Assembly: GCA_016926475.1 (NCBI GenBank)
Contig: JAFGON010000102.1
Span: forward strand, 1 to 13,123
Source: a candidate division WOR-3 bacterium
Lineage (GTDB): Bacteria > SDB-A
Length of the DNA stretch: 13,123 bases
Direction of reading: 5' to 3'
Shown: piece after piece, positions 6,071-9,240 of the stretch
How positions within the stretch are numbered: the stretch's first letter is position 1
How the letters are laid out: each line of letters opens with the position of its first letter
Notes under the pieces: model-generated
Told to the model about the DNA's origin: nothing
What the model saw: only the letters and a program-made list of their open reading frames with translations
Database searches by the model: none
Translations under genes and position numbers: made by a program

Positions 6071-6205
6071 AATTATTTTTCCGACGCGTTAACAATCTGC
6101 AACGGTATAAGCTCAAATATTCTTTATTATTACCTGAAAATTTGCTATTTTTATAAATTGATTACGAAGACAATAGAAAAACACACCTAAAGGAAAGAAA
6201 ACAAA

Positions 6206-8191
6206 TTGAAAGAAAGGCCCCAATTTCCGAAAAGGGCGGTGATAACCGCCGGAATGCCTTACGGCAACAAAGAACTTCACCTCGGACACATAGGAGGGGT
6301 TTTCGTCCACGCCGACTGCTACGCGAGATTTTTAAGAGACAGAATAGGAAAAGAAAACGTCATCTTCGTCTCGGGAACCGACTGCTACGGCTCTCCTATT
6401 CTTGAAGACTTCAGGCGGCTTTCTTCCGAAGGCAAAATCAGCGGGACAATTGAGGATTTCGTCAGGTCCAACCACGAAAAACAGAAAATTGTTCTTGATA
6501 AATACAGTATAAGCCTAAACCTCTACGCCGCTTCAAGTTTCGGAAGGTCCGGCGAGAACCACAAGGCGTTCTCGGATTATGTCATAAACACTCTTTATAA
6601 AAACGGTTTTCTCATCAGAATGACTACATCCCAGTTCTTCGACACTGAATTCGGAGTTTTTCTCAACGGACGGCAGGTCGTCGGTAAATGCCCCATCGAG
6701 GGTTGTTCATCGGAAAAAGCTTACGCCGACGAATGCTCGATAGGCCACCAGTACATGCCCGAAGACCTGATAGACCCCAAGAGCACACTATCCGGGAAAA
6801 AACCCGAAATGAAAGGTGTAGAAAACTGGTATTTAGACCTCGTCGCTTTCGAAGATTTGCTGAGACAATGGACTGAAAGCATCAGAGAAAAGCCCAACTC
6901 GCGCCCTTTTGTAATAAAAAGCATATGGGAATTCCTGGAGCCACCAATTATTTACGTCAAACGCGACCAGAAAGAAAAACTCCAACCCATCCTTTCCAAG
7001 CTACCCCAACACGAAATTATAGACGACGGGGACAAAACTCCCGTCCGAATTGTATTCCAAAAATTAGAACAAAGAGAAAAATCCTGCGCCATTCTCAGGG
7101 ATAATTATATACGATTTCGAACCGGCAAGACGTTAGTGCCTTTTAGAATCACCGGCAACACCGAATGGGGAATTCCCGCTCCGATCATCGAGGGGGTGGA
7201 AGGACTGACCTTCTGGGTTTGGCCTGAATCACTGTGGGCGCCAATTTCGTTCACGATGACCTACCTCGAAAGCCTTCAAAAGGACAAAGACGCCTGGAGG
7301 GAATTCTGGTGCTCCAAAGATTCAAAGGTCTACCAGTTCATAGGAGAGGATAACGTCTATTTTTACGGACCCGTGGAAACAGCTTTGTTTATGGGCATGC
7401 AGGGCGGCAAACCCGTTCTCGACCCCGAGGAAGGCCAACTGCAGATACCCGACATTATTGCCAACAGCCATATTTTGTTTCTGGACAAAAAAGCGAGCAG
7501 CAGCGGCGCCATCAAACCGCCAAGCGCCGAAGACCTCCTAAACTATTACACGCCGGAACAATTGAGAGCACACTTTCTAAGCCTCGGACTCGGCTTGAGA
7601 AGCGTCGGATTCAAACCCAAGCCGCTAAATCCAAACGCAGACCAGTCAGCGGGTGACCCCGTCCTCAAGGAAGGCAATCTCCTCTCAAACGTTTTTAACA
7701 GGGCGGTGCGTTCGTGTTTTTACGGGGTCCAGAAATACACCTCCGGCAAAATACCAATGGGCGAGGTAAGCACAGAAGTGCTCAGTGACTCCGAATCTTT
7801 GATTCTCGAATACGAAAACCGCATGCACAAATGCGAATTGCACCTTGTGATAAACCTTATGGATTCTTATCTTCACGGGATAAACAAGTTCTGGTCGAAA
7901 AACATGAAGGAGGCGGACGCGGCAGGAGACGATTCCCTTCGCAGACAGACCCTGATAGACGCTTTCCACATGATCCGAACCGCGGCTGTTCTCATGCACC
8001 CGATAGCCCCGCAGGGAACCGAAATGATACGCGAATACCTGCGATTTGACGAAAGTTTTTGGAGCTGGGACCGGATTTTCGAGCCTGTGTACTCATTCAT
8101 GAAAGACCCTGTAAACCACGAACTCAAATATTTAGAGCCTAGGGTGGATTTTTTCACAAAACACCCGAACCAGATACAGGGAAAACCCTGA
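6206..8191 (+). CDS. Divergent methionyl-tRNA-synthetase-like class I tRNA ligase family protein
   Basis: A 661-residue class I synthetase-fold protein most like methionine-tRNA ligase. The HIGH-type motif is ELHLGHIGG (23-31), and GTDCYGSP (57-64) corresponds to GTDEHGT. A zinc knuckle is present with ligands Cys162, Cys167, Cys177 and His181 in place of the usual four cysteines, followed by the MetRS-like EDLIDPKSTLSG (186-197) and NWYLDL. After this, about residues 243-313 look like an extra segment before RITGNTEWGIPAP (314-326). The region usually read WFDAP is WVWPESLWAP (337-346). KMSKS is replaced by KASSS (429-433). An anticodon-type helical domain follows (about 490-625); there is no C-terminal EMAP/OB domain. 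The start is TTG 6206 with AAAGGAAAG upstream; residues 11-31 align with the usual N-terminus. It may be a working variant, seen in some anaerobes as far as I recall, or a paralogue with another role. Confidence 0.8.
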   Translation: MKERPQFPKRAVITAGMPYGNKELHLGHIGGVFVHADCYARFLRDRIGKENVIFVSGTDCYGSPILEDFRRLSSEGKISGTIEDFVRSNHEKQKIVLDKYSISLNLYAASSFGRSGENHKAFSDYVINTLYKNGFLIRMTTSQFFDTEFGVFLNGRQVVGKCPIEGCSSEKAYADECSIGHQYMPEDLIDPKSTLSGKKPEMKGVENWYLDLVAFEDLLRQWTESIREKPNSRPFVIKSIWEFLEPPIIYVKRDQKEKLQPILSKLPQHEIIDDGDKTPVRIVFQKLEQREKSCAILRDNYIRFRTGKTLVPFRITGNTEWGIPAPIIEGVEGLTFWVWPESLWAPISFTMTYLESLQKDKDAWREFWCSKDSKVYQFIGEDNVYFYGPVETALFMGMQGGKPVLDPEEGQLQIPDIIANSHILFLDKKASSSGAIKPPSAEDLLNYYTPEQLRAHFLSLGLGLRSVGFKPKPLNPNADQSAGDPVLKEGNLLSNVFNRAVRSCFYGVQKYTSGKIPMGEVSTEVLSDSESLILEYENRMHKCELHLVINLMDSYLHGINKFWSKNMKEADAAGDDSLRRQTLIDAFHMIRTAAVLMHPIAPQGTEMIREYLRFDESFWSWDRIFEPVYSFMKDPVNHELKYLEPRVDFFTKHPNQIQGKP

Positions 8192-8215
8192 CTAAAATTT
8201 AGTATAAAAAACTTG
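8191..8215 (+). promoter_or_regulatory. Palindrome and TATAAA abutting a GTG start
   Basis: Arms ACTAAA (8191-8196) and TTTAGT (8198-8203) form a palindrome with a one-base centre, starting on the last base of the synthetase stop codon. TATAAA (8203-8208) runs on from it and ends six bases before GTG 8215. No Shine-Dalgarno-like sequence precedes that GTG. The geometry would fit a leaderless start, but no -35 element is evident. Confidence 0.3.
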
Positions 8216-9240
8216 TGGCGATTATAACCCATAAACTCAAAAAAAATTTAAGATACACTGTGTCAGGTAAGTGCGAGCGCTGCGGCAAACCCTACAGTGT
8301 TTCAAAAGACGTGGACGTGGGCGCCGTATCACAAACAACCTCCCACAGGCCTAACGTAAACACGGAAAAACTTGTCTTGAGATCAATTTCAGTGACAAAA
8401 AACGTGTTCTGGGATGTTTTGAAAAATATCTTCGCAGAACCCCGCAGATTCGACGTAGTAAAATCCTGCCCCTCCTGCGGACATACTCAGTCCTGGATGG
8501 TTTTAAACGACACACGGGGAAAAAACAAGATATCACAATTTTTCAAATCAATAACCGGTTCCGACACATATCTAATTAAAACACCGACGGCACCTTCTCT
8601 GTCCATAAGCATGCCTGACACGGACACCACATCAATTCACGATTATCCCCCGGAGATACCTTTTGAATTGACCCGCACTGTTCAGTCCAGCCTTTTTTTC
8701 TGTCTTAAAAAAGGGGTTCCACCCCTGTACGTAAAGTATCTCGGGGCGAAAACAATGCTGGTCTCAAAAAACAGGATCTCAAGAGCCGAGGGTGAAGACA
8801 TTCTGAAACAAATAGATTATTTAAATAAGCGGAGGGCGGTCGGAGATTGGTTCAAAACAAATCCCGTTAAAATGGATGAGCAAATCCTTTTTGCGCTCGC
8901 GATGAGAATGAACAGACGAAACTGGCGAAACCTGGCGAGGCTAGCGGAAGATTTTCACTACAGGTACGTCAGCCGAGAAAAGTTGATGCGCCTGCTTCTA
9001 AAAGAGGAAAACGATGGAATATCCGACATCGCCCTCGACGACGACAAGGCGATTGAATTCTATTTCAACGTCGACCGGAGAAAAAAGCAAATTGTCATCT
9101 GCCAGGAATGCAAAAAACAGATGTTGATACCGATAGAACCGCTGCCTTCGGTGTTCACCTGTCCAAACTGCGGAAAGACAAAAAAATGTTCTTGGCGTCA
9201 GTTTCCGAACTCAAATGCCCGGTTTATTTTTTTGGAATAA
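8215..9240 (+). CDS. Unrecognised protein with two zinc ribbons
   Basis: A 341-residue protein with no family I can name. Four CxxC pairs are seen. Cys20/Cys23 (KCERCGK) and Cys85/Cys88 (SCPSCGH) could form a first zinc ribbon split by about 60 residues. Cys296/Cys299 (ICQECKK) and Cys316/Cys319 (TCPNCGK) form a compact second ribbon near the C-terminus. Between them lies a charged, mainly helical middle (about 180-290) with clusters such as RMNRRNWRNLARLAED. Such ribbons often bind nucleic acid or mediate protein contacts. There is no signal peptide or membrane span. The start is taken as GTG 8215, the first possible start after the in-frame TAG at 8200-8202; no ribosome site is visible, so a later start such as the GTG at Val16 cannot be excluded. 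It lies 23 bases after the synthetase-like gene, suggesting a shared transcript. Confidence 0.72.
   Translation: MAIITHKLKKNLRYTVSGKCERCGKPYSVSKDVDVGAVSQTTSHRPNVNTEKLVLRSISVTKNVFWDVLKNIFAEPRRFDVVKSCPSCGHTQSWMVLNDTRGKNKISQFFKSITGSDTYLIKTPTAPSLSISMPDTDTTSIHDYPPEIPFELTRTVQSSLFFCLKKGVPPLYVKYLGAKTMLVSKNRISRAEGEDILKQIDYLNKRRAVGDWFKTNPVKMDEQILFALAMRMNRRNWRNLARLAEDFHYRYVSREKLMRLLLKEENDGISDIALDDDKAIEFYFNVDRRKKQIVICQECKKQMLIPIEPLPSVFTCPNCGKTKKCSWRQFPNSNARFIFLE

Follow-up and report, generated by a model that had tools for sequence, protein, structure and literature searches.

The MLP gene and its surroundings

The window analyzed here, a whole stretch of 13,123 nucleotides from a candidate division WOR-3 bacterium, harbors on its (+) strand an open reading frame (ORF) of 661 aa that starts with TTG at position 6206 and ends with a stop codon at 8191, where the original prediction had placed a protein similar to methionyl-tRNA synthetase (MetRS). 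We use MLP as the working name of the MetRS-like protein family to which its product belongs. The features recognized at the locus are the following:

6206..8191, +: MLP gene, encoding a proposed MetRS-derived glutaminyl-tRNA synthetase of 661 aa (ORF; PF09334, 212 bits; AF2; VIA-align)
6189..6197, +: candidate purine-rich ribosome-binding-like site, aaaggaaag, just 5' of the TTG start (inferred by reading the sequence)
6278..6289, +: HIGH motif in the form HLGH, residues 25-28 (H25, G27 and H28 invariant in 50 relatives)
6689..6748, +: C-C-C-H zinc knuckle, C162/C167/C177/H181, possible zinc ligands (4/4 invariant in 50 relatives)
6932..7123, +: MLP-specific insertion, residues 243-306, with a predicted ferredoxin-like fold (gap between Pfam matches; AF2)
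7214..7243, +: WVWPESLWAP, residues 337-346, in place of the MetRS pocket part WxDAPxxY (alignment; nearly all invariant)
7352..7378, +: pocket helix with Y387 (E. coli H301) and E/Q391 (E. coli W305) (alignment map, 50 relatives)
7487..7507, +: KMSKS equivalent, KKASSSG, residues 428-434 (K429, A430, S432 and S433 invariant, n = 50)
7655..7738, +: predicted anticodon-binding helix, with R499 and S/T503 at the positions of MetRS N391 and R395 (mean conservation 0.82; alignment map)

The Pfam model PF09334 detects MLP as two matches with a gap over the insertion, which bears out, for about residues 243-306, the earlier claim of a stretch without counterpart in MetG. MLP falls below every MetRS equivalog cut-off (166 vs 336 bits for TIGR00398, 216 vs 587 bits for PRK00133), and no match to glnS (TIGR00440) was listed for it in the profile search. 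The HLGH signature, the C-C-C-H arrangement of the putative zinc ligands and the replacement of the WFDAP-type residues were found as first described. The KMSKS equivalent does read KASSS, as had also been noted, but to call it degenerate was an overstatement: the first lysine is kept and the second is absent, a modest change given that many canonical MetRS read K-x-S-T-S, including that of the same genome (KVSTS).

The only other genome with the same upstream neighbors of the gene, a flavodoxin and a small membrane protein, is G001, of the window's bacterial family. A 341-aa ORF with CxxC pairs (8215-9240, +) lies 24 nt 3' of the MLP gene and is absent at the same place in G001. PADLOC returned no defence-system match, and no tRNA genes were found within the window or recurrently near MLP loci.

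MLP is a widespread and conserved paralog of MetRS

The genome to which the window belongs (G000, 2.15 Mb, 100% complete) encodes a canonical MetRS at C82, with a score of 617 bits to metG against a cut-off of 336. MLP is thus a paralog, and the variant main synthetase that had been considered is excluded. Since all 33 genomes tested, of which 31 are MLP hosts, have a canonical MetRS above the cut-off, a role as second or main MetRS was rejected.

A scan of GTDB genomes yielded at least 575 MLP relatives, the best 80 of which belong to Clostridia, Spirochaetales, Deltaproteobacteria, Lentisphaerae and Oligoflexia; among database matches the family is mostly clostridial, with Collinsella also represented. 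Orthologs share 86% (G001), 59% (Monoglobus), 56% (pRUMAL02 of Ruminococcus albus) and 46% (Collinsella) identity with MLP and, where annotated, are merely called "class I tRNA ligase family protein". An alignment of 50 members showed invariance not only of the four knuckle residues and of the KMSKS-equivalent positions listed above, but also of Y387 and of W337, W339, P340, E341, S342, L343, A345 and P346. The unusual motifs being invariant across the family, the gene is not decaying, and this conservation together with the intact frames rules out a pseudogene.

The MetRS tree that the original prediction had called for gathered MLP into one group of its own (support 100/100) on a long branch of 4.1 changes per site, apart from canonical MetRS and from the PyrN-like proteins, which formed a separate group, also long-branched (100/99). 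Because of the long branches the deeper placement is unsure. The family was also considered as mobile cargo, and this was rejected: phage records matched MetRS genes only in part and at low identity, and the three true orthologs in plasmid records were all on large replicons of gut or rumen bacteria.

The predicted structure keeps the MetRS fold and changes its pocket

The AlphaFold2 model of MLP (pLDDT 92, pTM 0.91) predicts a full-length MetRS fold, with VIA-align Z scores of 36.5 against E. coli MetRS with methionine (1f4l; 527 residues, 2.9 A rmsd) and 36.4 against the Aquifex MetRS-tRNA complex (2ct8; 455 residues, 2.3 A). To compare the active sites, MLP residues were mapped by alignment onto E. 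coli MetRS in the numbering of the literature, the roles of H301, W305, DAPxxY, D52, Y15 and W253 being those which we take from MetRS structures. The equivalents of D52, Y15 and W253 are kept. The methionine pocket residues (H301, W305 and A256/P257/Y260) are not retained: H301 is replaced by Y387 in 50/50 relatives and W305 by residue 391, which is E in 41 and Q in 9 of the 50, while DAPxxY becomes ESLWAP, the whole WVWPESLWAP stretch aligning without gaps to Y-V-W-L-D-A-P-I-G-Y of E. coli.

N391, R395 and W461, the readers of the CAU anticodon in E. coli MetRS, are lost in MLP, their positions being occupied by R499, by S/T503 and by a variable residue. The helix with R499 reaches the conservation of the catalytic halves (0.82 vs 0.80-0.86). 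The 64-residue insertion, modelled alone (pLDDT 84), gave weak matches to ferredoxin-like, ACT and EF-G domains (best VIA Z 8.7), and no convincing sequence match for it was found in Pfam or the PDB.

T-box leaders and GluRS genes associate MLP with glutamine

A T-box motif was found just upstream of MLP in 13 of 97 loci, the window's gene having none, and 10 MLP leaders exceeded the Rfam T-box gathering score. The specifier, taken as the three bases lying six bases before GAGC, is a Gln codon in 12 of 12 readable leaders (CAA in ten, CAG in L034 and L204); the thirteenth leader (L031) is truncated at the end of its contig and was left out of this count. When the rule was checked on T-boxes of Clostridium zeae and Anaerocolumna genomes, whose genes were identified by eye from the protein starts, the expected codons were obtained for LeuRS/leuA (CUC), ValRS (GUA), TyrRS (UAC), ProRS (CCU), ArgRS (AGA), GluRS (GAA) and cysE/cysK (UGC). 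A T-box on classical glnS, considered as a parallel to MLP, was found on none of 24 genes checked, so MLP and glnS are not regulated alike.

In 20 of the 75 loci with room for it, the gene immediately preceding MLP on the same strand encodes GluRS, which is often the only GluRS of the host.

MLP and GlnRS replace each other between genomes

The census covered 215 Clostridia genomes of at least 95% completeness, most of them MAGs, of which 30 carry MLP and 185 do not. GlnRS was detected in 3/30 of the former compared to 131/185 of the latter (Fisher test ignoring phylogeny; p-value: 2e-10). GatB was absent from 55 of the 215 genomes, 48 of which have GlnRS without MLP, 2 both enzymes, 5 MLP only and 0 neither. 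Therefore, the only genomes lacking a known route to Gln-tRNA carry MLP (five genomes, all MLP-positive, vs 0/185 of those without MLP; Fisher test ignoring phylogeny, p-value: 4e-5). These five (G092, G123, G169, G193 and G222) represent about three lineages by MLP identity, four of them have genomes of 0.8-0.9 Mb, and the MLP proteins of all five themselves contain Gln (17-28 residues). Outside this even sample, neither GlnRS nor GatB was seen in the MLP-positive genomes G069, G074, G075 and G082 (completeness not given), and GlnRS was present beside MLP in 8/29 genomes reached through similarity matches.

GatB is present in 23/30 MLP-positive Clostridia, and 22/30 have GatB without GlnRS, most of them with AsnRS too, so an indirect route to Gln-tRNA is possible there. 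That GatB is kept only because AsnRS is missing does not hold in general, since nearly all hosts have AsnRS, and applies only to the group of reduced genomes (n = 5). Four of these have AsnRS and lack GatB, and the fifth (G298) lacks AsnRS and carries gatCAB followed by aspS in one operon, a pattern which indicates that GatCAB follows there the need for Asn and not for Gln. In some other MLP hosts (L213, L214 and L216) gatCAB lies beside, or gatB is fused to, a nondiscriminating AspRS. The adjacency is seen in Anaerocolumna and a Herbinix MAG, and the natural GatB-AspRS fusion, of 957 aa, in the Ruminococcus MAG G084 (L213:1025-3898, -). By analogy with Deinococcus and Thermus, where GatCAB is devoted to Asn (PMC4206432), these arrangements would fit a GatCAB devoted to Asn.

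The same exchange is seen in the window's own bacterial family. MLP without GlnRS was found in G000 and G001, and the reverse in G002, of the same genus as G000, and G003, of the same family, whose GlnRS scores 427 bits (a fragment at a contig end) and 753 bits, respectively. A direct-charging slot thus appears to be filled by either enzyme. GatE was seen in all four genomes and GatD in G003, and MLP need not be the sole route to Gln-tRNA in the window's genome. The GatE loci (L188:331-2289, -; L189:1651-5048, +, with GatD; L192:1-996, -) include full-length GatE and GatD copies above the TIGR00134 and TIGR02153 cut-offs; these proteins are usually described as archaeal, and the copies of this family are of archaeal type. 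G001 gave no GluRS match at all, probably owing to an assembly gap.

MLP as a probable glutaminyl-tRNA synthetase derived from MetRS

From the T-box codon, the census, the exchange within the window's family and the GluRS adjacency, we infer that MLP functions as a glutaminyl-tRNA synthetase and arose from MetRS, in an origin separate from that of the classical GlnRS, which derives from GluRS; to this reading we assign a probability of about 0.8. The proposal of a paralog repurposed for another amino acid is therefore supported, glutamine being the most likely one. In a reshaped methionine pocket of MLP, L-glutamine would be activated with ATP; HLGH, the first lysine of KMSKS and the counterparts of D52 and W253 are kept, and the H301 and W305 positions are changed to Tyr and Glu/Gln. 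The activated glutamine would then pass to tRNA-Gln, recognized through an anticodon helix that lacks the CAU readers of MetRS. Some bacteria appear to depend on the enzyme alone for Gln-tRNA-Gln; in others it would form a second route beside GatCAB, GatDE or GlnRS, whose gene may sometimes be switched on by a T-box sensing uncharged tRNA-Gln.

MLP could also deal with tRNA-Gln without being a translational synthetase, supplying Gln-tRNA to a non-ribosomal process or helping GluRS/GatCAB. The Gln specifier, the adjoining GluRS genes and the frequency of GatB among the clostridial hosts suit such a role, but the five MLP genomes without GatB and GlnRS offer no indirect route that MLP could assist, the genomes of the window's family have either MLP or GlnRS, and MLP loci show no conserved non-ribosomal-synthesis neighbor, so that we regard this possibility as unlikely. 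Loading of glutamate onto tRNA-Gln by MLP, or a regulatory function of MLP devoid of synthetase activity, is highly improbable. The related PyrN uses Glu (PMC8664883) and the second KMSKS lysine is absent; however, in the same five genomes Glu-tRNA-Gln could be processed no further, the catalytic residues are invariant, and that lysine is missing in many canonical MetRS as well. A divergent second MetRS, for example an inhibitor-resistant one, would explain the complete fold and the kept HIGH, D52, Y15 and W253 equivalents, but a T-box codon for Gln instead of Met, the changed pocket and CAU readers, and the scores far below the MetRS equivalogs make it extremely unlikely.

The non-tRNA aminoacylation entertained in the original prediction would have its closest precedent in PyrN/Spb40, tRNA-independent amino-acid activators that are MetRS-like partners of N-N-forming cupins. 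Their domains also descend from MetRS, and some of them accept Glu or other amino acids (PMC8664883). The fold matches of MLP include a PyrN domain with glutamyl-sulfamoyl-adenosine, and the window contains a cupin-like ORF of 117 aa (1583-1936, +). However, this ORF matches only itself among the 1143 neighboring ORFs of 85 MLP loci and was found in no other MLP locus examined, no homolog of the Rhizobium cupin or of the SidA monooxygenase was found in that set, and MLP and PyrN-like proteins form separate, supported clades, on which grounds a PyrN/cupin system was rejected. Non-tRNA aminoacylation as such is disfavored by the T-box leaders for tRNA-Gln, by an anticodon-position helix conserved as much as the catalytic core and by the filling of the GlnRS/GatB gap by MLP, and the PyrN-type reading is accordingly very improbable.

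Relation to known routes and systems

Reviews give two routes to Gln-tRNA-Gln, the indirect one by amidotransferase and direct charging by a GlnRS that derives from GluRS and came from eukaryotes (PMC7373986), and no earlier description of the MLP family as a GlnRS was found in the full text of open-licence PMC papers. A MetRS-derived GlnRS would quite probably constitute a third bacterial route, the sole one in some genomes. It would share with the classical GlnRS (TIGR00440) the proposed reaction and the genomic role, but it belongs to a different class I lineage. With GluRS plus GatCAB/GatDE it would share the product, made there by two-step amidation. Compared to canonical MetRS of the MetG, E. 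coli/archaeal type, MLP adds the C-C-C-H knuckle, the predicted ferredoxin-like insertion and, in some hosts, a Gln-specific T-box. PyrN/Spb40 is likewise a MetRS paralog with a new amino-acid specificity, as proposed for MLP, but its association with a cupin and a Lys/Orn hydroxylase (PMC2922099, PMC8664883) is not shared by MLP.

If correct, the assignment would contradict the view that direct glutaminylation arose only once, out of GluRS in eukaryotes, with bacteria acquiring it by transfer. It would represent an independent invention of the synthetase of a coded amino acid and a rare natural specificity switch on one scaffold, from Met to Gln and from CAU to YUG. It would also explain the genomes seemingly without any Gln-tRNA route, correct the annotation in hundreds of genomes, gut bacteria included, and give orthogonal synthetases a new scaffold.

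Other elements at MLP loci

An uncharacterized protein of about 330 aa, with no Pfam match, is encoded directly upstream of MLP in 10 loci (e.g. L071:8782-9780, +). An MnmA-like tRNA 2-thiouridylase lies near MLP in six loci (e.g. L069:5316-6389, +), tRNA-Gln being a known MnmA substrate. The Clostridium zeae locus carries a cyclic di-GMP-II riboswitch (L063:31-113, +).
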